Source: Pseudoxanthomonas gei
GTDB lineage: Bacteria > Pseudomonadota > Gammaproteobacteria > Xanthomonadales > Xanthomonadaceae
NCBI RefSeq assembly: GCF_010119615.1
Contig: NZ_QOVG01000001.1
Span: forward strand, 186,001-250,000
DNA length: 64,000 nucleotides
Reading direction: 5' to 3'
The translations under genes and the position numbers were made by a program. The notes beneath the pieces were generated by a model, which saw only the letters and a list, made by a program, of their open reading frames with translations, was not told where the DNA came from and made no database searches. Position 1 is the stretch's first letter; every line of letters starts with the position of its first letter. Of this stretch, positions 12,982-23,526 are shown one piece after another.

Positions 12982-13309
12982 TGGCGCTTCCCGGGCATCT
13001 GCATCATGGTGCAGTGCGATAGTGGTTTACCTGCAGTGGCAACTCCCGATACTTATTTTTTTCGTTAATTTGCCGCCGACCGTTCGGCGGTTTTTTTATC
13101 GGGTTTGTCCTGATTCTTTTTTTTGCGGCGTTCTTGCCGCAATTACGCGGTAATCACCGATACACACGCAATGCCCGCCAAGGCTTTTTTTTCGCTTCTT
13201 TGTTATTAACCATTCGTGGACAGGCCACTAACAAATTCTCTTGTAAATCGGGTGGGCGTCGTCTTCATCAAGCCTCCCCTGGGCTTCTGGCGGCGTGTAG
13301 GAGAACAAA
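12982..13309 (+). other. 328-bp intergenic leader before the Gly-rich cassette
   Basis: No gene is visible here. The stretch is much richer in A+T than its surroundings (many T runs at 13054-13205) and holds two hairpins: a terminator at 13073-13097 and an inverted repeat at 13123-13129/13136-13142 without a T tract downstream. The promoter for the 13310 gene should lie between about 13100 and 13290. I do not see a clear sigma-70 or sigma-54 box. Confidence 0.6.
13073..13097 (+). terminator. rho-independent terminator after crcB
   Basis: A 7-bp GC-rich stem (13073-13079 with 13084-13090) closes a CCGT loop and is followed directly by seven T residues. It lies 91 bases past the crcB stop and separates the housekeeping operon from the Gly-rich cassette. 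Confidence 0.85.
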
Positions 13310-14587
13310 ATGTTTACGAGAAAAACCCTGATCGCGTCGGCGATAGCGTTGGGCCTCGGACTTCTGGGACCAGCCTACGCGGCGGAAAACAACGAGAGCG
13401 GAGATGGCGACGATGTGCTGACCGCAACGGACGCCACTGACAACAGCAATAACAGCGACAACAGTGACAACAGTGACAACAGTGCCAACGGCGTCGCCGG
13501 AGCCGAAGGCTATGGCAACGCTGCCGCGAACAACGGCGGTACGGCCACGGCCAACTTCTCCAATTCCTTCAATCACAGCAAGGCCATCGCCACGACCAAG
13601 CTTGAAGGCTATGTGAGCGATGTCTACGTGCATGACATTGGCAATGTCGCCAAGAACTACGGCGACGCCAATGGAGGAAAGGGCGGTAAAGGCGGTGCTG
13701 GCTATGGTGGTGATGGCTACGGTGGCGAAGGCTACGGCGGCAATGGCGGCGACGGCGGCAACGGCGGCGACGGCGGCAGCGGTGGCGATGCCGACAACGG
13801 CAGCGCATCGGCAGGCGATTCCAGCAATGGCAGTGCCACCATTGGCGATGCCTATGCTGGAAACGGCGGTCGTGGCGGGCGTTCCGACCACAACGACAGC
13901 GGCCGGGGCGGCGATGGCGAAGGCTATGGCGGTCCGGCCGGCAGCGCGAGCGGTGCGGGCGGTGGCGACGGCTACGCAGATGGCGGCCATGGCGGCGGCC
14001 TCAGCGCATCGGCTGGCGGTGACGGCAGCGGCACGAGCGGCGACGACACCTTCGGCGATACCACGGGCACCGGCGGCGCCGGCACATCCGGCGATGGCAC
14101 CGGAACCGGTGGCTCCGGCACTGCAACCGGTGGCGCCGGCACGGCAGGCGCAGCGACTGCAACCGGTGGAGCGGGCAGTGGCACTGCCGGCAACAGCGGC
14201 GACGTGGCAAGCACCGCAGGCAACGGCGGCGATGGCGGATCGGCCACCAATGGCGATGCCACCAATGGCGGTGCGTCCTCCAGTGCAACCAACGGCGATG
14301 CCCTGGCAGGCGACGGCGCGACTGGCGCGGTCGGCGCAGAAGGCGGCGTTGGCGGCGATGGCAACGGTGGCGTCGGCAACGGCGGCGTCGGCAATGGCGC
14401 TACGGGCGGAGCTGGCGGCGGCGGCGGATCGGTTGTCAACGACGCTGGCGCGTTCGACATGTCCAACAACATGACCAGTGTCGGGCAGTCGGCGGCGGGC
14501 ATCATGGTGGCAGCGCAGAACAGCGGCATGGCGTCGCTGATCCAGCAGGGCATCACGGTGCAGGCCAACCTGACCGTAGGTCCGTAA
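13310..14587 (+). CDS. exported Gly-rich repeat protein, putative fibre or matrix subunit
   Basis: A 425-aa protein with AGGAGA seven bases upstream. Layout: signal peptide 1-24 (ends AYA); an acidic Asn/Asp/Ser stretch with NSD repeats (45-58); a non-repetitive head 60-118 containing KLEGYVSDVYVHDIGNVAKN; a Gly/Ala/Asn/Asp/Ser/Thr-rich block ~119-375 built of short units such as GYGGDGYGGEGYGG and NGGDGG; and a conserved-looking tail 376-425 with QNSGMASLIQQG and terminal VGP. No cysteine, no LPXTG, no autotransporter barrel. The tail resembles that of the 143-aa protein encoded next. Such composition suits an amyloid-like, adhesin or matrix protein, but I cannot assign it to a named family. 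Confidence 0.8.
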   Translation: MFTRKTLIASAIALGLGLLGPAYAAENNESGDGDDVLTATDATDNSNNSDNSDNSDNSANGVAGAEGYGNAAANNGGTATANFSNSFNHSKAIATTKLEGYVSDVYVHDIGNVAKNYGDANGGKGGKGGAGYGGDGYGGEGYGGNGGDGGNGGDGGSGGDADNGSASAGDSSNGSATIGDAYAGNGGRGGRSDHNDSGRGGDGEGYGGPAGSASGAGGGDGYADGGHGGGLSASAGGDGSGTSGDDTFGDTTGTGGAGTSGDGTGTGGSGTATGGAGTAGAATATGGAGSGTAGNSGDVASTAGNGGDGGSATNGDATNGGASSSATNGDALAGDGATGAVGAEGGVGGDGNGGVGNGGVGNGATGGAGGGGGSVVNDAGAFDMSNNMTSVGQSAAGIMVAAQNSGMASLIQQGITVQANLTVGP

Positions 14588-14600
14588 AGCGCAGGACGGC

Positions 14601-14633
14601 ATGCATCGGGCCGCCCTTCGCGGCCCGGTGCAT
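14601..14633 (+). other. stable intercistronic hairpin without T tract
   Basis: A 14-bp stem (14601-14614 with 14620-14633, one T-G wobble) closes a five-base loop and begins 13 bases after the stop of the Gly-rich gene. No U run follows, so it is not a canonical terminator. It is more likely an mRNA 3'-end stabiliser or partial attenuator that lets the first gene be made in excess of the downstream genes. Confidence 0.65.
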
Positions 14634-14687
14634 CTCACGGAAAGCCGTAGGGGCGGTGATTACGTGCGGGACGTATGGGAGAAGATC

Positions 14688-15119
14688 ATGAGTATTGCTC
14701 GTACGATTTTTCTGCTTGCGTGCGTCGTGGGATCCAATACCTGCCTTGCCGAGGAAGAAGCGTTCCCTGTACAGGGGCAGGGCGCTGATTCCCTGGAAAT
14801 CCAGGTTGAGGCTCCGGGCCTGCTGCCTTCGGCTGATGCCGGGCCGGTCGCGCTGGAGGATTCCAGCGCCATCGGCATTCCGGTCGATGTCGGGATACTG
14901 CAGGACCTGCGTGGAGGCGAAAGCAGCGTAGACAACAAGGTCCAGATCGACGGATGGGTGGATGGCAACGTGGCCGAGGATGTGGTCACCGGTTCCAACG
15001 CCATCAATGGCGATGCGTTCGCCAATAGCACCGGGATCAGCACCGTAATCCAGAACACCGGGAACAATGTCCTGATCCAGAACGGCATGGTGGTCAACGT
15101 GCAGTTCGTCGGTCCCTGA
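14688..15119 (+). CDS. small secreted protein with DLRGG double-glycine-like motif
   Basis: A 143-aa protein; ATG 14688 has GGGAG just upstream and opens a signal peptide (MSIARTIFLLACVVGSNTCLA). After ~50 residues of acidic linker comes IPVDVGILQDLRGG (64-77), then KVQIDGWVDGNVAEDVV and a tail QNTGNNVLIQNGMVVNVQFVGP shortened here by name only: key residues Q122, N123, G125, L129, I130, Q131, G133 and the terminal VGP. Hydrophobic residues at -4, -7 and -12 from the GG fit the pattern cleaved by C39 peptidases, and a C39 peptidase is the next gene (one base between them). Role proposed: minor or nucleating subunit. No named family recognised. Confidence 0.75.
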   Translation: MSIARTIFLLACVVGSNTCLAEEEAFPVQGQGADSLEIQVEAPGLLPSADAGPVALEDSSAIGIPVDVGILQDLRGGESSVDNKVQIDGWVDGNVAEDVVTGSNAINGDAFANSTGISTVIQNTGNNVLIQNGMVVNVQFVGP

Positions 15120-15120
15120 C

Positions 15121-15810
15121 ATGGACGTTGGCAGGCTGTGCCTGGCCTTGGCCTTGGCCGCGGTAATTGCGGTGCCGACACGGGCCAGGGAGATGTCATT
15201 GCGCGTGCCGCCTGGCGGAAGCTATGCGGTGCGCGTCACCAGCCTGAAGGAGGCGCGGTACCAGACCACCATCGCCCAGCAGTACGACTTCAGCTGCGGC
15301 TCGGCGGCTACCGCCACCTTGCTCACTTACCAGTACGGACACCCGGTGGATGAGCGACAGGTTTTCGTGAAGATGTACCAGAGCGGCGACCAGGCCAAGA
15401 TCCGCCAGCAGGGATTCTCGCTGCTGGACATGCGCAGGTACCTCGAGTCGGAGGGTTTCCAGGCTGATGGTTTCGAACTGCCACTGGAGAAACTCTCGGA
15501 CGAGGGCCTGCCCGCGATCGTCCTGCTCAATGACCGTGGCTACCGGCATTTCGTGGTGGTCAAGGGCCTGCGCAATGGGCGGGTATTGCTGGGAGATCCT
15601 GCACGTGGCACGCGCGCCATGCCGCGTTCGCGTTTCGAGGCCCTGTGGGACAACCGCTTGCTGTTCGTGGTGCACAACCGGCGCGACAGCGCCCGCTTCA
15701 ACCAGGGCGCGGACTGGCGTACCGCGCCGCCGGCACCACTGGAACTTGGCGTCCAGCGCGACGGCCTGCGCAACATTGCGCTGCCCAGGCGCGGCGTGGG
15801 AGATATCTGA
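15121..15810 (+). CDS. periplasmic C39-family cysteine peptidase (FapD-like)
   Basis: A 229-aa protein with a signal peptide (to about residue 22). The papain-like C39 core is complete: oxyanion Gln and catalytic Cys in QQYDFSCG (Q54, C59), His in YRHFVVV (H143) and Asp in LGDPARG (D159). Unlike bacteriocin exporters, no ABC-transporter domain is fused, which matches stand-alone exported C39 proteins such as FapD of the Pseudomonas amyloid operon. It is embedded between two genes whose products carry GG motifs, its likely substrates. ATG 15121 follows the previous stop by one base. Confidence 0.85.
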   Translation: MDVGRLCLALALAAVIAVPTRAREMSLRVPPGGSYAVRVTSLKEARYQTTIAQQYDFSCGSAATATLLTYQYGHPVDERQVFVKMYQSGDQAKIRQQGFSLLDMRRYLESEGFQADGFELPLEKLSDEGLPAIVLLNDRGYRHFVVVKGLRNGRVLLGDPARGTRAMPRSRFEALWDNRLLFVVHNRRDSARFNQGADWRTAPPAPLELGVQRDGLRNIALPRRGVGDI

Positions 15811-15813
15811 GCC

Positions 15814-16326
15814 ATGAACAGAATCCTTTTCCTCGGGTGGCTGGCTGGAATCTGCGCCAGCCCCCCTGCTGTTTCCGCGGATGCTGCGCCGCCTGACGTC
15901 GCTGCCGACGCGCTTGGCAGCGAATGGGTGCCGGTCGATCCCGCCCTCCTTGCCGACATGCGCGGCGGAATGGTGCTGCCTTCGGGACTATCGCTTTCGT
16001 TCGGCATAGACAGGCTGGTCTACGTCAACGGCGACCTGGTCGCCAGCACGCGCCTGCATATCGCCGACATCGCACAGATGACCCAGGAAGACGCGGCGGC
16101 GCTGGTGGCGCTCAACCAAGGCACTGTCATCCAGGTAGGCAGTGGCAACGCCATCAGCCCGGGCCCGGCCACCAATGGGCTGGTGATCCAGAACACGTTG
16201 GACAACCAGGACATCCGCGCCCTCACCAGCCTGCAGGTTGGCGTGGATACGTTGGGGCTGTTGCAGGAAATCAATAGCTACGACGCGCTGCATAACGCCT
16301 TGATCGCGTCGCCCGGTGGCCCATGA
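15814..16326 (+). CDS. small secreted protein with DMRGG double-glycine-like motif
   Basis: A 170-aa protein with a signal peptide (MNRILFLGWLAGICASPPAVSA). The motif VPVDPALLADMRGG (39-52) closely matches that in the 143-aa protein encoded at 14688: shared P-V-D, L at -7, D at -5, L/M at -4, RGG. The remainder (53-170) is predicted beta-rich and includes SLSFGIDRLVYVNGDLV and NQGTVIQVGSGN. It may be a second C39 substrate or an accessory subunit comparable in position to FapE, without FapE's CxxC. ATG 15814 lies three bases past the C39 stop; its own stop overlaps the next ATG. Confidence 0.72.
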   Translation: MNRILFLGWLAGICASPPAVSADAAPPDVAADALGSEWVPVDPALLADMRGGMVLPSGLSLSFGIDRLVYVNGDLVASTRLHIADIAQMTQEDAAALVALNQGTVIQVGSGNAISPGPATNGLVIQNTLDNQDIRALTSLQVGVDTLGLLQEINSYDALHNALIASPGGP

Positions 16327-17672
16327 ACAGGGAGAAGGCTGTGCAACGGAAATCAATTAAGCATGCTGGGACCCTGATTCCGCTTGTCTGCGCCACCATT
16401 TCGTTCTGCTACGGCGCCCATGCCCAGGAGCCTGCCGACACGTGGGATGCGGGTCGGCTGGCGGTCCTTCAGCAGCAGATCAACGAACAATCACAGAAGC
16501 TGGAAGACATGCGCCAGTCGATAGGCGTCCAGGAGGAAAACCTGTTCCGTCTGCAGCGTGCGCTGGATGAAGAGGTGCTGGCCAATGCGCGCGCACGCGG
16601 TATCCAGCCACCGCCGCCGCATCCGATGCTGCAGGCGGCCCCGGCATATGCACAGGCCCAGGGTCGCCCTGCGGAATCGCGGCAACCCGTCGGTCAGGCG
16701 CCGGAAACGGATTCGCGGCCGCCAGAGGTGGCGCAGATCTTCGACCAGCCAGGCGTGTTGACTCCGCCGGGGAAGTTCGTGCTGGAGCCTTCGCTGCAGT
16801 ACGGTTATTCGTCCAACGACCGGGTTGCGCTGGTTGGCTACACCATCATCCCCGCACTGCTCATCGGGCTGATCGACGTGCGCCAGGTGAAGACCACTTC
16901 GGCAACGGCCACGCTGACTGGGCGCTATGGGTTGAACAACCGGTTCGAGCTGGAGGCAAAGATTCCCTACGTCTATGTCAACGGCGACACGGTCAGCCGC
17001 GAGATCTTCACCGGCACGGCGGTGGACAATGTATTCAACTCGCACGGCAGCGGACTGGGAGACGTGGAAATCACCGGGCGTTACCAGCTCAACCGGGGTG
17101 GCCCGGACAAACCGTTCTACGTGGCCTGGCTGCGCTACAAGAGCCGGACAGGCACGGACCTGTTCGAAGTGGTGACCGACTGCATCACCCGTTGCGTCGG
17201 CAACACCACCGGCACCGGCCTGCCATTGGACCTGCCGACCGGCAGTGGCTTCGATGCGATACAGCCGGGCATCACCTGGCTGTTTCCGTCCGACCCGGTG
17301 GTTTTTTTCGGCAGCCTGAGCTACCTGCACAATTTCCCCCGCAACAACGTTTCCCGTACGCTGATCGACGGACAGCGGGAATTCCTCGGCGACGTGGAAG
17401 CCGGTGACATCATCGGCTTCAACATGGGCATGGGCCTGGCCTTGAATGAGAAAGCGGCCATCAGCATCGGCTACGACCAGAACCTGGTGGCCAAGACCAA
17501 GCAGAACGGCGAGGCGGTCGCCGGCTCGGTCAATGTCACCCTGGCCACCCTGTTGCTGGGGGCCACGTACCGCTTCAATGAAAAAGCCTCGCTCAACGTG
17601 GCGCTGGGGGCGGGCCTGACCCGTGATACGCCCGACGTCAGCGTGACGGTGCGCGTGCCGGTTACTTTCTGA
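16323..17672 (+). CDS. outer-membrane beta-barrel with N-terminal coiled coil (FapF-like exporter candidate)
   Basis: A 449-aa protein. A signal sequence ending GAHA is followed by a predicted coiled coil (about 45-90: LAVLQQQINEQSQKLEDMRQ onward), a Pro/Gln-rich linker, and from about residue 140 a beta-barrel with alternating strands (FVLEPSLQYGYSSND, SATATLTGRYGLNNRFELEA, GDVEITGRYQLN) ending in the outer-membrane-type VPVTF. The coiled coil plus barrel plan is that of FapF, the secretion pore of the Fap amyloid system. The barrel resembles generic 'transporter' outer-membrane proteins of xanthomonads. ATGA overlap with the preceding gene supports a shared operon. Confidence 0.8.
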   Translation: MNREKAVQRKSIKHAGTLIPLVCATISFCYGAHAQEPADTWDAGRLAVLQQQINEQSQKLEDMRQSIGVQEENLFRLQRALDEEVLANARARGIQPPPPHPMLQAAPAYAQAQGRPAESRQPVGQAPETDSRPPEVAQIFDQPGVLTPPGKFVLEPSLQYGYSSNDRVALVGYTIIPALLIGLIDVRQVKTTSATATLTGRYGLNNRFELEAKIPYVYVNGDTVSREIFTGTAVDNVFNSHGSGLGDVEITGRYQLNRGGPDKPFYVAWLRYKSRTGTDLFEVVTDCITRCVGNTTGTGLPLDLPTGSGFDAIQPGITWLFPSDPVVFFGSLSYLHNFPRNNVSRTLIDGQREFLGDVEAGDIIGFNMGMGLALNEKAAISIGYDQNLVAKTKQNGEAVAGSVNVTLATLLLGATYRFNEKASLNVALGAGLTRDTPDVSVTVRVPVTF

Positions 17673-17735: not shown

Positions 17736-18806
17736 TCAACGCTTGAAGCGGTAGTGCGCCACCATCCACTCGTTGCCGTTGTCATAGCCGAACAGCTCGG
17801 CGCATGCCATCCAGAACATGCGCCAGCGCTGGTACCACAACGGCGCGTCGACCATTCCGTACACGCTCTGCAGGACCCGCATGACCTGGTCGCGGTTGTT
17901 GTCCTGGTTCTGCAGCCAGGCGTTGGCGGTCTTCTCGTAGTGCGTTCCCGACAACAGCCAGCGTTGCTCGATGCTGATCTTGTCCTGGAAGGCGAGCAGG
18001 GTGTCAGCCGAGGGCATCAGCCCGCCAGTGAAAAAGTGCCGGCCCATCCAGTTGCCTTCGCCCTTGGCCTCGAACAGGTACAGCAGCTCGCGGTGGCAGA
18101 AGATGTGCACGAAAAGCTTGCCGCCTGGCACCAGCCAGCTGCCGATGCGCGATAGAAGCTCCTGGTAATTGCGCATGTGCTCGAACATTTCCACGGAGAC
18201 CACGCGGTCGAAGCTTTCGTCCTGCAGACGCAGGTTGTTGACGTCGGCGGTGATCACCTCGACGTTGAAGATCGCACGTTCGCGGCAGCGCGCTTCGATG
18301 AACTCGCGTTGCATCTTCGAGTTGGAAACGGCGGTGATCCGGGATTCGGGATACTGCTTGGCCATCCACAAGGTCAAAGACCCCCAGCCACAGCCCAGCT
18401 CCAGGATGCGCTGCCCGTTGCCGAGTTCGGCACGCTCTCCGTACAGGCGCAGCATGTGGTCCTCGGCCATGCTGAGGCTGGTGGTGGCCTCGTCCCAGTA
18501 GCAACTGCTGTATTTCAATTGCCGGCCCAGGCAGAGCTGGAAGAACTCCGGCGGCAGCTCGTAGTGCTGGCGGTTGGCGGCCTGGGTTTCAACGGCGATG
18601 TCGCTGTTGCGCAGGCCTTCCAGCCAGGCCTGCTGGCGGGCGAAGACCTCTTCGGCGCCACCCTTGCGCTCGTCCTTGAGGCGCTGCGCGCATTGCCGAC
18701 GGATACCGAGACGCAGCAGATTGTCGGGCAGGCGACCGGACTCGGCCAGGCGGGTGGCGAAGCTTTCCTTTTCGGTGTCTACGATGAAAGGTGAAGAGGT
18801 TGACAT
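17736..18806 (-). CDS. SAM-dependent methyltransferase of the CFA-synthase family
   Basis: A 356-aa cytoplasmic enzyme. SAM-binding motif I is ILELGCGWGSLTLW, with further motifs AVSNSKMQREFI and VVSVEMFEHMRNY; the C-terminal part has YLFEAKGEGNWMGRHFFTGG. It differs from the classical CFA synthase encoded at 20145 and matches the second, shorter methyltransferase found in these lipid clusters, which in furan fatty acid loci is a candidate for methylating an unsaturated acyl chain. ATG 18806 has GGAG upstream; longer frames overlap the DUF1295 gene. Substrate inferred from context only. Confidence 0.85.
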   Translation of the reverse strand: MSTSSPFIVDTEKESFATRLAESGRLPDNLLRLGIRRQCAQRLKDERKGGAEEVFARQQAWLEGLRNSDIAVETQAANRQHYELPPEFFQLCLGRQLKYSSCYWDEATTSLSMAEDHMLRLYGERAELGNGQRILELGCGWGSLTLWMAKQYPESRITAVSNSKMQREFIEARCRERAIFNVEVITADVNNLRLQDESFDRVVSVEMFEHMRNYQELLSRIGSWLVPGGKLFVHIFCHRELLYLFEAKGEGNWMGRHFFTGGLMPSADTLLAFQDKISIEQRWLLSGTHYEKTANAWLQNQDNNRDQVMRVLQSVYGMVDAPLWYQRWRMFWMACAELFGYDNGNEWMVAHYRFKR

Positions 18807-18826
18807 GCAGGCTCCAGGGATGGACA

Positions 18827-19606
18827 TCAATGCTTCGGGGGAAGCGGTACGAAAGGACTGGTGGTGCGCTGGTACTCGGCGTAATCCGCACCGCGCGTGC
18901 GCAAGGCCTGCGCCTCGGTGTAGGGAATGCCGGTGACCCGATACAGGAACGCCAGCATCAGCGCCGGCCCGATGAGACTGACGGCCACCCAGCCCGTGCC
19001 CATGCCGATGGACAGGAACACATAGGTGAACCAGTGCAGGAATTCGAAGAAGTAGTTCGGGTGCCGCGAATAGCGCCACAGGCCACTGCGGCAGGTCTTG
19101 CCGCGGTTGGCAGGATCCATGCGGTGCGCGGCCAACTGGCTGTCGGCCATGCCTTCACCCATCACTGCGACCAGCCAGACCACGACGGCGATTGCCTTCC
19201 ACAACGTCCAATGCGCAACCGGGTTGTGTGCGGCAATCCAGAACGGCAGGGAGAACAGCACCACGAATCCCGCCTGTGCCTGGAAGAACAGGAAGAAATT
19301 GCGTTGATTGCCGCTCCAGCGCACACGCAGGTTGCGGTAGCGCCCGTCTTCCTCTTCGCTGAAGACGCGCCTGGCCAGATGCAAGGCCAGGCGCGCGCCC
19401 CACAGGCCGCCCATCAGGGCCACCAGCACGCGGGGCAGGGCGGCGCCCGGCAACACCAACGCGTAATAGACCGCGGCCACGGCCATGCCGGCCGACCACA
19501 ACACGTCAACGATGCCAGCGTTGGCCGTCTTCCGTTGCCACAGCCAGCCACCGCCCATCAGCACGGACGCAGCCAGCAATACCCAGAGCAAGGGCCACGC
19601 GTTCAT
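18827..19606 (-). CDS. DUF1295 integral membrane protein (steroid 5-alpha-reductase-like fold)
   Basis: A 259-aa membrane protein with about six helices. The C-terminal signature SGLWRYSRHPNYFFEFLHW and RTRGADYAEYQRTTSPFVPL places it in DUF1295, related to NADPH-dependent sterol and enoyl reductases. It probably reduces or modifies a lipid; in similar operons it accompanies CFA-type methyltransferases. Its ATG at 19606 overlaps the stop of the upstream DUF2878 gene (ATGA). Confidence 0.88.
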   Translation of the reverse strand: MNAWPLLWVLLAASVLMGGGWLWQRKTANAGIVDVLWSAGMAVAAVYYALVLPGAALPRVLVALMGGLWGARLALHLARRVFSEEEDGRYRNLRVRWSGNQRNFFLFFQAQAGFVVLFSLPFWIAAHNPVAHWTLWKAIAVVVWLVAVMGEGMADSQLAAHRMDPANRGKTCRSGLWRYSRHPNYFFEFLHWFTYVFLSIGMGTGWVAVSLIGPALMLAFLYRVTGIPYTEAQALRTRGADYAEYQRTTSPFVPLPPKH

Positions 19607-20148
19607 CCTGGAACTCCGCTGGACGAGGGTAGGGGGGTTCTCGCGAGGCGCAGCGTGGCATAACTCAACAGCCCCATTGCCGCTCCCCACAGCGCAGCCA
19701 AAGGTACCAGTACCGCCGCACAATAATCTGTGAATTGAACCGCACCCCACGTACGCGACGCAATCCAGTACGAGAGCGCTCCGCCCAGCGCGCCAAAGGC
19801 GATGGCCAGCAACGGGCGGCGCATGATGCCGGACATCGAATGATTGAAGGTCAGGGCAAAGCCCATCCAGAGCGACAGTATCCACACGGGGGCGAGCGCG
19901 GCAGATGGGACGGGCGAGGCATAGCGCAGCAAACCGCTGGCCGCCATGGTCGTATCGACCACGAGGCCCACCGGCAGGGCAAGCAGCATCAGGCCCACGT
20001 CACCGCGGGCGCGGAATCGGGGCAAGAGCTGGACCGCGGCAAACAGCAACAGGCACAGCGGGCCCAGCCAGGCAAGTCCACGTGCCGCACCCCCTACCGC
20101 TGCCATCCATAGCAGTTGCGAGGCAATGAAATTCAGCCAATTGCTCAC
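19603..20148 (-). CDS. DUF2878 membrane protein
   Basis: A 181-aa protein with about six hydrophobic segments (e.g. FIASQLLWMAAVGG, LMLLALPVGLVVDT, PVWILSLWMGFALTFNHS). The NHSMSG and LPVGLVVDT stretches fit DUF2878, a family of unknown function regularly found in CFA/DUF1365 clusters. GTG 20148 is preferred because it overlaps the stop of the upstream gene (GTGA) and starts the first helix. Confidence 0.8.
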   Translation of the reverse strand: MSNWLNFIASQLLWMAAVGGAARGLAWLGPLCLLLFAAVQLLPRFRARGDVGLMLLALPVGLVVDTTMAASGLLRYASPVPSAALAPVWILSLWMGFALTFNHSMSGIMRRPLLAIAFGALGGALSYWIASRTWGAVQFTDYCAAVLVPLAALWGAAMGLLSYATLRLARTPLPSSSGVPG

Positions 20149-21437
20149 GCCGCCGCCATTGCATACGGATATTGCGGCGGGCGCGCATCCGGACGCGTCA
20201 GCCACAGGTGCACGTCGCCGATGGAACGTTCGCGGAACCCGCCCTCGCAATAGGCCAGGTAGAAGTTCCACATGCGCACGAAGCGGGTGTCGTAACCCAG
20301 CGCCCTGACCCGGGGCAAGTTCGCATGGAAGCGCTCGCGCCAGGCCTTGAGCGTCAACGCGTAACTGGGGCCGATGTCCTCCAGGTTGAACACGCGCAGG
20401 TCACTGGCCCGCCCAATGGCGCCAGCCATCGCCGACACGCTGGGTATGAAGCTGCCCGGGAAGATGAAACGCTTGATGAAGTCGACCGACTTCAGGGCCT
20501 GCAGGTAGCGGTGGTCCTCGATGGTGATCGCCTGCACCAGGGCCTCGCCGTCGGGCTTGAGCAGGCCGGCGACCTTGGCGAAGTAGGTGTCCAGGTACTG
20601 GTGGCCGATGGCTTCGATCATCTCGATCGAGACCAGCCGATCGTACTGCCCGTCCAGGTCACGGTAGTCCTTGAGCATCACCTCGACGCGGTCTCCCAGC
20701 CCTGCCTGCTGGATGCGCTGGCAGGCCAGCTCGTGCTGCTCGCGGGAGATGGTGGTGGTGGTGACGTGGCAGCCATGCTCACGGGCGGCATGCAGCGCGA
20801 ACCCGCCCCAGCCCGTGCCGATCTCCACCACGTGGTGCTGTGGGCCCAGGCGCAGTTTCTCGCATATGCGCGCCAGCTTTCGTGTCGAAGCAACTTCCAG
20901 GGTCTCGTCCTCGCTCTCGAATATCGCGGAGGAATACATGAGGTTGTCGTCCAGGAACAGCTGGAACAGCGGATTCCCCAGGTCATAGTGCGCGGCGATG
21001 TTGCGGCGGCTGCCCCTGCGCGTATTGCGGGCAAGCGCATGCATGGCCTGCATCGCCCAGCCGCCCAGTTTTGCCAGCCCGGAGTCCATTGCGTCCAGGC
21101 GTTCCCGATTGCGTACCAGGATACGCACGAGGGCGACCAGGTCGTCGCAGTCCCACAAGCCCTCCAGATAGGCCTCGCCTGCGCCAACGCTGCCGTTGAG
21201 CGCGGCCATGCGGTAGAAGGCCGGGTCGTGGATCCGCAGGTGCGCGTGCAGCGTTGCATCGGCATGGGCCGCGGGTGTGCCAAGGACCATGGTTTCGCCG
21301 CTTTCCTCGATCGACAGTCGGCAGTCGCGCAACTCGCCCAGCGTTGCAAGCAAGCGCTTGCGCAGTACCTTTTCAACCATCGAAGATGCAGCCTGCTGGG
21401 TGGCGCCATCGAGCACGGGCACATGCGGACGATTCAC
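20145..21437 (-). CDS. cfa: cyclopropane-fatty-acyl-phospholipid synthase
   Basis: Uses SAM to methylenate unsaturated acyl chains of membrane phospholipids. The 430-aa protein has the N-terminal lipid-binding domain and the catalytic domain with AHYDLGNPLFQLFLDD, MYSSAIFE, SAM motif VVEIGTGWGGFALHA, MIEAIGHQYLDTYF, and FIKRFIFPGSFIPS. Length and motifs are those of true CFA synthases. It sits mid-operon; its ATG at 21437 overlaps the stop of the upstream DUF1365 gene. Confidence 0.93.
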   Translation of the reverse strand: MNRPHVPVLDGATQQAASSMVEKVLRKRLLATLGELRDCRLSIEESGETMVLGTPAAHADATLHAHLRIHDPAFYRMAALNGSVGAGEAYLEGLWDCDDLVALVRILVRNRERLDAMDSGLAKLGGWAMQAMHALARNTRRGSRRNIAAHYDLGNPLFQLFLDDNLMYSSAIFESEDETLEVASTRKLARICEKLRLGPQHHVVEIGTGWGGFALHAAREHGCHVTTTTISREQHELACQRIQQAGLGDRVEVMLKDYRDLDGQYDRLVSIEMIEAIGHQYLDTYFAKVAGLLKPDGEALVQAITIEDHRYLQALKSVDFIKRFIFPGSFIPSVSAMAGAIGRASDLRVFNLEDIGPSYALTLKAWRERFHANLPRVRALGYDTRFVRMWNFYLAYCEGGFRERSIGDVHLWLTRPDARPPQYPYAMAAA

Positions 21438-22282
21438 GGGGATATCCTTTTCTGTGGATGGTCATGGACGGGATTGCCGCGTAGCCAAAGGCGCAGGGCT
21501 TGCCAGTGGATGGCGGCCAGCACTTGCAGCGTCATCAGCGGGAAGCGGAGCAGCGCCGCTGCCAGGTGGCGTGAATCGATGGGAGCCCGCCGCAGGACCA
21601 GGGTGGCGTCGAACTCACGATCTGTTGGATCACCTTGCGACTCCGGCGACAACACATCCATGTGCACGTGCAAGCTGTCACCAGGAACGTCTAATCGCCA
21701 TGCGTAGGCGTGTTGCATCGCCATGAAGGGCGAGACATGGAATCGCTTTTCGAATTTCCAGGCGTGCATCCTGCCGTGGGGATTGGCGTCAGCGGCCGCA
21801 AGCACATAGACATATCGCTGCTTCCAGGGCGTGTTGGTGATTTCAGCCACCACGGTATCCAGCGTCTGTCCGTCTTCGGCGAAGCAGTAATAGAAGCTGA
21901 CCGGATTGAAGCACTTGCCGAAGTAGCGCAGGTGGGCAAGCAGGCGTATCGGACCGCGCGGCCGTGGGTGGCCGTGCTGCTCCACGCAGTCACGCACGGC
22001 CAAGTCCAGTGGCACTGCAGGGTCGCCCAGGTAGTCACTGCGCCTGAATTCGGCCACGTTGCGCCGCCCCACCGACCACAGCCAGCGACCCGCGAACACC
22101 TGCTCGACTTCGGCAAGGTCCAGGTAGGCCATGAACAGGCGATAGCGGAACGCATGCGGATGGGGTGCATGGCGTCGATGCCGCACCCAGCCCGTGTAGA
22201 GCCCGCTCGCAAGGTCCGCGGCGCGCGGGCATGCATTGATTTCACTGTGCTGCGGATCCGCCGCAGGGCGCAACAGGGTCAT
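21434..22282 (-). CDS. DUF1365 family protein
   Basis: A 282-aa protein with the family signature RHRRHAPHPHAFRYRLFMAYLDL (quoted only in part: RHAPHPHAFRY), LAHLRYFGKCFNPVSFYYCF and VAEITNTPWKQRYVYVL. DUF1365 proteins nearly always sit beside a COG2907-type oxidoreductase and a CFA synthase, as here, and belong to loci induced by light or singlet oxygen in several proteobacteria; their activity is unknown. ATG 22282 overlaps the stop of the upstream gene; a GTG six bases earlier is possible. Confidence 0.9.
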   Translation of the reverse strand: MTLLRPAADPQHSEINACPRAADLASGLYTGWVRHRRHAPHPHAFRYRLFMAYLDLAEVEQVFAGRWLWSVGRRNVAEFRRSDYLGDPAVPLDLAVRDCVEQHGHPRPRGPIRLLAHLRYFGKCFNPVSFYYCFAEDGQTLDTVVAEITNTPWKQRYVYVLAAADANPHGRMHAWKFEKRFHVSPFMAMQHAYAWRLDVPGDSLHVHMDVLSPESQGDPTDREFDATLVLRRAPIDSRHLAAALLRFPLMTLQVLAAIHWQALRLWLRGNPVHDHPQKRISP

Positions 22283-23526
22283 GGCCACTGCACTCCCAGT
22301 CCACGTGCGACCTCCACTCCGCTGCGCAATCCATCTTCGTGGAAACCGAACCCCCAGCCCGCACCGGCGAACCAGGTGTGCGCAAGCCCCTGGATTTCCT
22401 GCTTGCGTGCCTGTGCCGCTACCGAGGCATGATCCTGCAGCGGATGGCGGTAGTGCAGCCGCCGATGGATCCGTGCCGGGTCAATGTCGGCGTGCCGGTT
22501 GAGCGAGACGATGAACTGCTGCGGCGCCTGCAGCGACTGCAACGCATTCATCCAATAGCTGACACTGCAGGGCGCGTTTTTGTCCGCAGGCACCCAGGCG
22601 TTCCACGCCGCCCAGGCGCCACGGCGCGTGGGCAGTACGCGGATATCCGAATGCAGGATGGCCTCGTTGTCCTGGTACTGGATCGCGCCGAGGATTTCCC
22701 GTTCCCGGGCGGTCGCATCGACAAGCAGGGACAGCGCATCGTCGGCATGGCAGGCAAGCACCACTTCGTCGAAAAATTCGCTGCCAAGCCTGCTGGTCAC
22801 GCTGGCACCGCCGGTCACCCGACGTACCGAAGTCACTGGCGTCGCCAGTCGTTCCTGCACCGTCCAGCGCGAGCGCAGCGCGCGTACATACGATTGCGAG
22901 CCGCCACCGACCACCCGCCATTGCGGCCGGCCCGTCAGTTGCAGCATGTCGTGGTTGGCCATGAAGGCGACCAGGTGCTTCATGGGAAACCCGAGGATGC
23001 CGCGCGCGGGCGACGACCACAGCGCCGACGCCATCGGGATGAGGTGGTTGTCGCGGAACATGGCCGAATACCGGTTCGATGCGAGGTACTCGCCCAGCGT
23101 GGGGCCTGGAGTACCCGTGCCCAGCACGGCCGGCGCATCGCGGTAGAAGCCCCGAAGCTCGGCCAGCATCCGCCAGAACGACGGGTTCAGCAGGTTGCCG
23201 GGCTGGCAGAACAGGCCGCGGACGCTACCGGCGTTGTATTCCAGCCCACTGGCTTCATCGTGGACCGAGAAGCTCATCGTGGTGGGCTGTGATACGACGC
23301 CAAGCTCGGCGAACATCGCAGTCAGCAGCGGATAGTGCGCCTGGTTGAAGACAATGAAGCCCGAATCCACCAGGTGGTGCCGGCCATCGACTTCAATGTC
23401 GTGGGTGTGGGTATGGCCGCCAAGGTAATCGCCGCTTTCGAACAGCACGACCTGGTGCTGGCGCGAAAGCAGCCATGCCGCGCCCAGCCCCGCAATGCCG
23501 GAGCCCACCACTGCAATGCGACTCAT
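22279..23526 (-). CDS. FAD/NAD-binding amine-oxidase-fold oxidoreductase (COG2907 type)
   Basis: A 415-aa flavoprotein. The Rossmann motif VVGSGIAGLGAA (GxGxxG at 8-13) opens the protein, followed by LVDSGFIVFNQAHYPLL and the C-terminal FAD-contact WFAGAGWGFGFHEDG. Related enzymes include squalene and carotenoid desaturases; in the furan fatty acid pathway a flavin-dependent desaturase (UfaD) acts on methylated acyl chains, and this gene is a candidate for such a role. Overlaps both neighbours by ATGA. Confidence 0.88.
   Translation of the reverse strand: MSRIAVVGSGIAGLGAAWLLSRQHQVVLFESGDYLGGHTHTHDIEVDGRHHLVDSGFIVFNQAHYPLLTAMFAELGVVSQPTTMSFSVHDEASGLEYNAGSVRGLFCQPGNLLNPSFWRMLAELRGFYRDAPAVLGTGTPGPTLGEYLASNRYSAMFRDNHLIPMASALWSSPARGILGFPMKHLVAFMANHDMLQLTGRPQWRVVGGGSQSYVRALRSRWTVQERLATPVTSVRRVTGGASVTSRLGSEFFDEVVLACHADDALSLLVDATAREREILGAIQYQDNEAILHSDIRVLPTRRGAWAAWNAWVPADKNAPCSVSYWMNALQSLQAPQQFIVSLNRHADIDPARIHRRLHYRHPLQDHASVAAQARKQEIQGLAHTWFAGAGWGFGFHEDGLRSGVEVARGLGVQWP

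Follow-up and report, generated by a model that had tools for sequence, protein, structure and literature searches.

The Fap system (fapABCDEF), described in Pseudomonas and other bacteria, is the closest counterpart of the locus presented here, a cassette of five adjacent plus-strand genes (A, B, C, D and E) spanning positions 13310-17672 of a 64,000-nucleotide stretch of Pseudoxanthomonas gei DNA, hereafter designated as the window. The peptidase FapD and the barrel FapF likely belong to larger families (PMC3792158), and neighbouring fapD-fapF homologues were reported in five further phyla (PMC6173800). The catalytic cysteine of FapD is needed for the secretion of FapC, and in 2017 the target of the peptidase was called unclear and the Fap proteins were described as having no canonical C39 sites (PMC5557850). 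A 2018 review regarded the FapD substrate as yet to be determined (PMC6173800), and a review of 2025 has FapD "thought to" process the N-terminus of FapE and FapF (PMC12822426).

Like Fap, the window cassette places a FapD-type C39 peptidase ahead of a gene in the fapE position and then a FapF-type barrel, and it combines these with secreted subunits carrying Fap-like repeats and, in D as in FapE, a leader-like site. In contrast to Fap, its C39 peptidase falls in a separate clade, two of its proteins have RGG leaders, and a Gly-rich single-repeat protein (A) and a second single-repeat protein (B) stand in place of FapC and FapB; none of the five genes matched a curated Fap subunit model in NCBIfam, no search of the genome for FapA having been made. 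The Neisseria nap island (NapP, NapF and NapA-C) likewise joins a C39 peptidase and a FapF homologue to GG-motif products, but these are small cationic peptides promoting autolysis, and the available part of its description includes neither a Gly-rich partner nor a Fap-like repeat (PMC11798529). Among the components FilA-F of the putative Fil pilus of Acinetobacter, only FilB and FilC were matched, by the window peptidase (8.9e-35) and the barrel (5e-12); however, both matches are under cut-off, both proteins match FapD and FapF better, and A, B and D match no Fil model in NCBIfam. Double-glycine bacteriocins with C39 ATP-binding cassette (ABC) transporters share the leader pattern and the C39 fold (PDB 6mpz, 1.8e-8), whereas the window peptidase stands alone and, like the window precursors, has a Sec-like signal.

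We assign a probability of about two in three to the reading that these genes form an operon for Fap-type secretion and assembly in a lineage separate from canonical Fap, in which the C39 peptidase would cut B and D after an RGG motif and the barrel would export the subunits into a Gly-rich fibre.

The cassette and its relation to canonical fap

The first-pass annotation, made from the sequence alone, had described five Fap-like export genes, all with signal peptides and spaced by -4 to about 100 bp. This layout is real, with intergenic gaps A-B, B-C, C-D and D-E of 100, 1, 3 and -4 bp, and a Sec-like N-terminus was recognised by eye in each product. The assignment of a FapD-type peptidase and a FapF-type coiled-coil barrel was also borne out. 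Judged by profile matches, the gene C peptidase is a FapD homologue (NCBIfam C39_FapD, 1.8e-41, 142 bits, under the equivalog cut-off of 330) and the gene E barrel a FapF homologue (NCBIfam FapF, 7.4e-47, 160 bits, under the equivalog cut-off of 700), with matches of ~1e-29 to the solved FapF chains in the PDB. All FapD and FapF matches in the 274 genomes of a class-wide survey fell under these cut-offs, those of canonical Fap loci included. The protease residues are intact: Q53, C59, H143 and D159 are invariant in 54/54 aligned C39 proteins. Three of the residues originally proposed (C59, H143 and D159) are therefore retained, whereas the fourth, Q54, gives way to Q53 as the likelier catalytic glutamine because Q53 aligns with 6mpz and is invariant, the column of Q54 holding glutamine in 28/54.

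In the class survey (FapD-type match at E<=1e-10, FapF match at E<=1e-5), FapD-type matches were present in 40 of the 274 genomes, FapF matches in 32 and both in 30 (Fisher p 4e-29). In four of the ten genomes with C39 matches only, the matches are part of open frames 705-1052 residues long, like those of ABC transporters. Since a FapD-type C39 gene was found within 8 kb of 35 of the 38 FapF matches, the co-occurrence test that the annotation had proposed as a check does not refute its Fap-like call. A barrel scan yielded 66 loci besides that of the window, in Pseudoxanthomonas, Lysobacter, Luteimonas, Massilia, Variovorax, Polaromonas, Rhodoferax, Aromatoleum, Thauera and others, and the set of five genes is conserved as a unit in Pseudoxanthomonas, in Lysobacter, in Luteimonas and in many Betaproteobacteria. 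Among these 67 barrel loci, a C39 relative occurs in 65, B in 63 and D in 63. Cassette members are missing near a contig end in L040, L042, L056 and L065; no D was detected in L064, and L041 has a C39 fragment alone and no detected D. A gene of type A (17-37% Gly, conserved C-terminus) immediately precedes B in 61 of 64 cases, 59 recognised by pattern and two (L054 and L058) by eye, and the three remaining B genes (L008, L029 and L037) are within ~450 bases of a contig end. The co-occurrence of the cassette is thus beyond chance. In many betaproteobacterial loci the barrel is on the strand opposite to the other cassette genes, and in two Massilia loci (L046 and L050) the B-C39-D set occurs twice, ~7 kb apart. 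D was found in 42/198 genomes and 12/54 genera within the family, and its distribution is therefore patchy. The window's genome revealed no further copies of B or D, the second match of the D profile (E 0.54) being B itself.

A tree of 54 C39 proteins, from 53 hand-chosen loci and the window, was rooted at its midpoint. The 12 canonical Fap rows form one clade (99/93) with the window type outside, and 17 of the 18 window-type rows form another (96/85). The intermediate-type loci L111, L112, L121 and L165, as well as L120 and the long-branched L122, sit on the window-type side. Moreover, one contig of Pseudoxanthomonas daejeonensis (L035) carries a canonical fap locus and the window type ~89 kb apart. 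The separate clade and this contig agree with the earlier view of a distinct system.

The subunits were less unfamiliar than first thought. Since 6 of the 16 genera known to have Fap are without FapA (PMC3792158), a missing FapA would not be decisive. A, whose middle part is rich in GGx/GxG (about residues 112-375, extent by eye), has no Pfam or NCBIfam match at E<=1; the best matches of B (0.06) and D (0.042) are chance-like and under cut-off, and none of the three matched a PHROG at E<=0.01. However, a hidden Markov model (HMM) built from 36 canonical FapB/FapC repeats placed B proteins as the top 21 of 5874 open reading frames (ORFs), the Fap and B repeat profiles compare with a probability of 62 (E 7.8e-5 for one comparison), and an HMM of the B repeat in turn finds the C-terminus of A in related loci. 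Because of both HMM results, A and B are each considered to have one weak Fap-like repeat. The claim of unfamiliar subunits therefore stands only in part, A and B ending in this repeat and D being FapE-like at its N-terminal junction, and repeats "different" from those of FapB and FapC was too strong a wording. The annotation had also pointed to the lack of CxxC. Indeed, A, B and D of the window have no cysteine after residue 25, but CxxC is found in three of the 11 canonical FapC listed (L098, L106 and L107; the L110 FapC is not among the 11). As the other eight lack it too, its absence separates nothing, and cysteine content was ruled out as a discriminator from Fap.

Candidate leaders in B and D and the matching site in FapE

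Double-glycine leaders of C39 peptidases follow the pattern L-S-x-x-E-L-x-x-I-x-G-G, with hydrophobic residues at about -4, -7 and -12 and GG at -2/-1. B and D each have a V-D-x3-L-x2-[LM]-R-G-G leader downstream of the Sec-like signal (Table 1), and both fit this pattern; the first-pass annotation had overlooked these leaders. The B set comprises 65 ORFs, including one truncated fragment (L001); among the 64 intact ones, RGG occurs in 63 and RGA in one, and all 65 D homologues have RGG. Position -7 is Leu in 64/64 B and 63/65 D, with Met in the other two D; position -4 is hydrophobic in 44/64 B and 61/65 D, and position -12 in 53/64 B and 62/65 D. In the D alignment (37 sequences), R50, G51 and G52 account for three of the seven invariant columns; in the B alignment (42 sequences), L71, R75 and G76 are invariant and G77 is present in at least 90%. 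Elsewhere among the 16 columns ahead of the predicted cut, the majority residue is found in about 10-79% of sequences. The segment preceding the motif varies widely in length across loci, with start codons unverified. No double-glycine leader was seen in A. In the AlphaFold model built from the D alignment (mean predicted local distance difference test score, pLDDT, 71.7), a helix at residues 43-49 meets the site, followed by low confidence at 49-54 and a better-ordered part at ~61-140. This conserved candidate cut site in B and D suggests a possible target of the FapD-type protease family.

A related site was found in FapE. The motif [LM]-x-x-x-R-G-[RK]-[FY] follows the signal peptide in the FapE of 12/12 canonical Fap loci, which were chosen by eye and their FapE proteins picked by the motif itself, Pseudomonas FapE not being among them. 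The FapE gene with the site is directly downstream of the protease; examples are LTDGELSGMRGRF, LSDEELGGLRGRY and VSDPVLAQMRGKF, and the site in Aeromonas caviae is LADGELAHLRGRY. Three of three motif-bearing proteins are FapE by NCBIfam (6.6e-33 to 2.3e-12, under cut-off). Because short segments of 43-44 residues around the site also match the FapE model in 5/5 proteins (1e-9 to 8e-6, model positions 23-64 of 247), the stretch belongs to curated FapE. Over 29 columns at the site, the D and FapE profiles compare with a probability of 60 (E 8.5e-5 for one comparison). When a FapE HMM was run against the 5874 ORFs, its first 62 ranks were all taken by B or D proteins, with weak single E-values of 0.003 to 2. 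Mass spectrometry was reported to recover no FapE peptides from the first ~70 residues, and GG/GA motifs were noted in FapE and before the FapF barrel (PMC5557850). By homology, FapD should cut FapE at the [LM]-x-x-x-R-G-[RK]-[FY] site. No statement of a FapE/FapD cut site or of a periplasmic C39 leader class was found in the portions of literature covered, subscription papers being mostly outside that coverage. Canonical fap genes were also seen to have small secreted neighbours in which a leader-like motif accompanies an "ILWDE" segment (L098, 8749-9168; L099, 9267-9581; L105, 5030-5368); these were not recognised as a named Fap member.

Barrels may contain such sites as well. In their linkers, a leader-like site was detected in 28/64 at shuffle p<0.05 and in 14/64 at p<0.01, a count that overstates the support because the barrels are related. 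In some FapF-type barrels (for example those of L165, L118 and L050), a leader-like L-x3-RG site is present where the coiled coil ends. These linkers fit the proposal that FapF, too, is cut by FapD (PMC5557850), the best site of the window barrel itself not being significant (shuffle p 0.14).

Leaders beside other C39 peptidases

A leader matrix was trained on 111 distinct B/D leader segments of loci L001-L067 and applied to 446 genes of 43 other loci, L102 being excluded as a duplicate of L035; genes were counted as adjacent if they shared the strand of the protease and lay no more than 2.5 kb from it. The top 22 genes (score >=4.7) were all C39-adjacent, against a base rate of 174/446. Two features of this ranking reduce its weight: it is partly dependent, L111, L112, L118, L120 and L165 holding B/D-type homologues, and it includes two barrels (L118 and L165) and at least three non-leader sites (L109, the FapB of L119, and L164). 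In a weaker, per-locus test, the top-scoring gene was C39-adjacent in 28 of 43 loci versus 18.0 expected. For most of the standalone-C39 loci the matrix does not work, and leaders there were identified by visual reading. A textbook-like double-glycine pattern occurred in 16/174 adjacent versus 2/272 other genes (p 1.2e-5), the two non-adjacent genes being a further copy of a cassette protein in L123 and a 96-residue gene in L161, and in 9/89 adjacent versus 2/140 other genes of the 24 standalone-C39 loci (p 0.004). These patterns were fixed after the sequences had been read, and the L-x3-RGG count in L002-L067 includes the B/D families.

We lean slightly towards a general interpretation of these leaders, in which periplasmic FapD/FilB-like C39 peptidases would mature Sec-exported proteins at a second, double-glycine-type leader, with RGG in B and D, RG[RK] in FapE, and related leaders in bacteriocin-like and toxin-domain proteins beside standalone C39 peptidases (Pseudomonadota and a Deinococcus plasmid). 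If true, both the substrate and the cut site of FapD would be named and a general periplasmic maturation route would be defined.

Individual loci provide further observations. In L154-L159, from a genome with seven C39 matches (G046), proteins with a similar Sec-like signal, a leader such as FLSEEEMQKITGEA and differing tails were noted by eye next to the C39 gene in 6/6 loci; they look like a bacteriocin-like or effector family matured in the periplasm. On a plasmid of Acinetobacter sp. SAAs474 (L123, 3447-6637), three ORFs upstream of the C39 gene share a signal and the leader LELSRQEMKDTQGA and have different tails. On a plasmid of Deinococcus sp. NW-56 (L122, 4883-7277), a Sec-like protein that combines the leader LSDAELDEVKGE with a toxin-33 domain (Pfam 3.7e-23) is encoded in the vicinity of a C39 peptidase and of a barrel annotated as outer-membrane. 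Small secreted proteins beside the C39 gene of L160, L166 and L171 have a variant leader ending in MD-x-[VI]-[TSA]-A-G, the L171 protein weakly matching the N-terminal part of DUF6160 (E 0.013, under cut-off).

Proposed mechanism, alternatives and genomic surroundings

In the proposed mechanism, Sec would export A, B and D through their signal peptides, recognised by eye, and the FapD-like C39 peptidase would then cut B and D after ..LxxMRGG. Cutting would be periplasmic because the peptidase stands alone and both it and its precursors have Sec-like signals. Removal of the pro-segments would leave 66 residues of B, with one Fap-like repeat, and 118 residues of the FapE-like D, and the FapF-like barrel would export the subunits, which would build a Gly-rich fibre. 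With its Gly-rich body, C-terminal Fap-like repeat and no leader, A probably serves as the bulk subunit of the fibre or matrix; B is a likely nucleator or co-subunit, and D a likely FapE-like gating, tip or anchor protein. As A has no leader, and none was seen by eye in FapB and FapC, cleavage would act on part of the subunits only, perhaps as a licence for secretion.

Several results weigh against this mechanism or the homologies behind it. Cleavage cannot explain the export of A, because this largest subunit has no leader. No individual match between the FapB/C repeat and B reaches significance (best E 0.064). The model built from the B alignment is of low confidence (pLDDT 60), although it too has a helix, at 68-74, and comparison of the D model with the PDB gave nothing at E<=0.001. 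Neither window D nor the D-like segment of L112 matched the curated FapE model, and the probability of the D-FapE profile comparison falls to 1.7 without the leader region, the likeness being almost wholly there. The R or K that follows RG in FapE is unusual for a C39 cut, and the bond broken there may lie on either side of it. Finally, the midpoint root places canonical Fap with the standalone C39 types and not with the window type (92/99); the window system thus appears, from its C39 sequences, to be a lineage separate from canonical Fap, and the tree does not support a sister relation.

A divergent canonical fap operon, in which A and B would be FapC and FapB, D would be FapE, fapA would have been lost and the mechanism would be the same, is unlikely. 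It would account for the shared relative order of protease, FapE-position gene and barrel, for the FapD and FapF homology and for the weak Fap-like repeats, and both the absence of fapA and a split-off fapF are known Fap variations (PMC3792158). On the other hand, the canonical C39 clade excludes the window type, which has a clade of its own, and the P. daejeonensis contig carries both systems; A combines one repeat with a Gly-rich body where FapC is described with three repeats (PMC3792158), and a leader of the B kind was not seen by eye in the FapB and FapC of the loci examined. We consider it quite improbable that the RGG of B and D is a structural or barrel-docking motif rather than a protease site, with the C39 peptidase acting elsewhere, for example on the barrel linker. 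The enrichment of leader-like sites in these linkers and the published proposal of FapF cleavage (PMC5557850) would fit this idea, but the whole pattern of B and D (hydrophobic -12, L-7, hydrophobic -4 and GG) corresponds to that of double-glycine leaders, comparable leaders are present in proteins which are encoded next to standalone C39 genes and otherwise do not resemble B and D, the segment ahead of the motif differs widely in length, and the window barrel has no significant site of its own.

An export of bacteriocin-like peptides as in the Neisseria nap island, with B and D as the active products, would explain the same protease-barrel pair with GG-containing products (PMC11798529) and the leader-bearing small proteins beside many standalone C39 genes. 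NapA-C are, however, described as cationic, whereas predicted mature B has a net charge of -8 to 0 in 64/64 and predicted mature D of -7 to +3 in 65, negative in 54/65; B and D as cationic bacteriocins were ruled out on this basis. With a Fap-like repeat in mature B and a Gly-rich A in all 61 cases with room upstream of B, this explanation is very improbable, and a Fap-type operon with cleavage of B and D after RGG remains the preferred reading.

The upstream neighbours of the operon are what we take to be a crcB/rarA-like pair, and the downstream neighbour is presumably a cfa-like gene on the minus strand. Two putative cfa-like methyltransferases and other membrane or unknown proteins occupy positions 17736-22288 on that strand. 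A candidate sigma-54 site ahead of the operon is weak, the pattern occurring 47 times in the window versus 45.8 by chance, and a consensus scan found no sigma-70-like promoter there.

Table 1. Features of the cassette in window coordinates; a slash within a sequence marks the predicted cut.
Feature	Coordinates	Strand	Description
Gene A	13310..14587	+	Secreted Gly-rich protein, 425 aa, 130 Gly; ORF and translation
C-terminal Fap-like repeat of A, AAGIMVAAQNSGMASLIQQGITVQANL	14462..14584	+	Segment recovered by the B-repeat HMM in the A proteins of related loci
Gene B	14688..15119	+	Secreted, small (143 aa); carries a double-glycine-type leader and a single Fap-like repeat
RGG codons, B leader IPVDVGILQDLRGG / ESSVDNK	14910..14918	+	Predicted C39 cut after GG
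Fap-like repeat of B, SNAINGDAFANSTGISTVIQNTGNNVLIQNGMVVNVQF	14994..15107	+	Canonical FapB/C repeat HMM
Gene C	15121..15810	+	C39 peptidase, 229 aa, Sec-like signal, FapD homologue, Q53/C59/H143/D159
Gene D	15814..16326	+	Secreted protein, 170 aa, fapE position, double-glycine-type leader
RGG codons, D leader VPVDPALLADMRGG / MVLPSG	15961..15969	+	Predicted C39 cut after GG
Gene E	16323..17672	+	Outer-membrane barrel, 449 aa, N-terminal coiled-coil-like region, FapF homologue
Terminator-like hairpin ahead of operon	13072..13091	+	Consensus scan only

The protease activity of FapD is needed for the secretion of the Fap amyloid, and the related RGG precursors described here make the substrate of FapD directly testable. 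Fap fibres, Nap peptides and the small secreted proteins found beside standalone C39 peptidases may share one periplasmic maturation logic.

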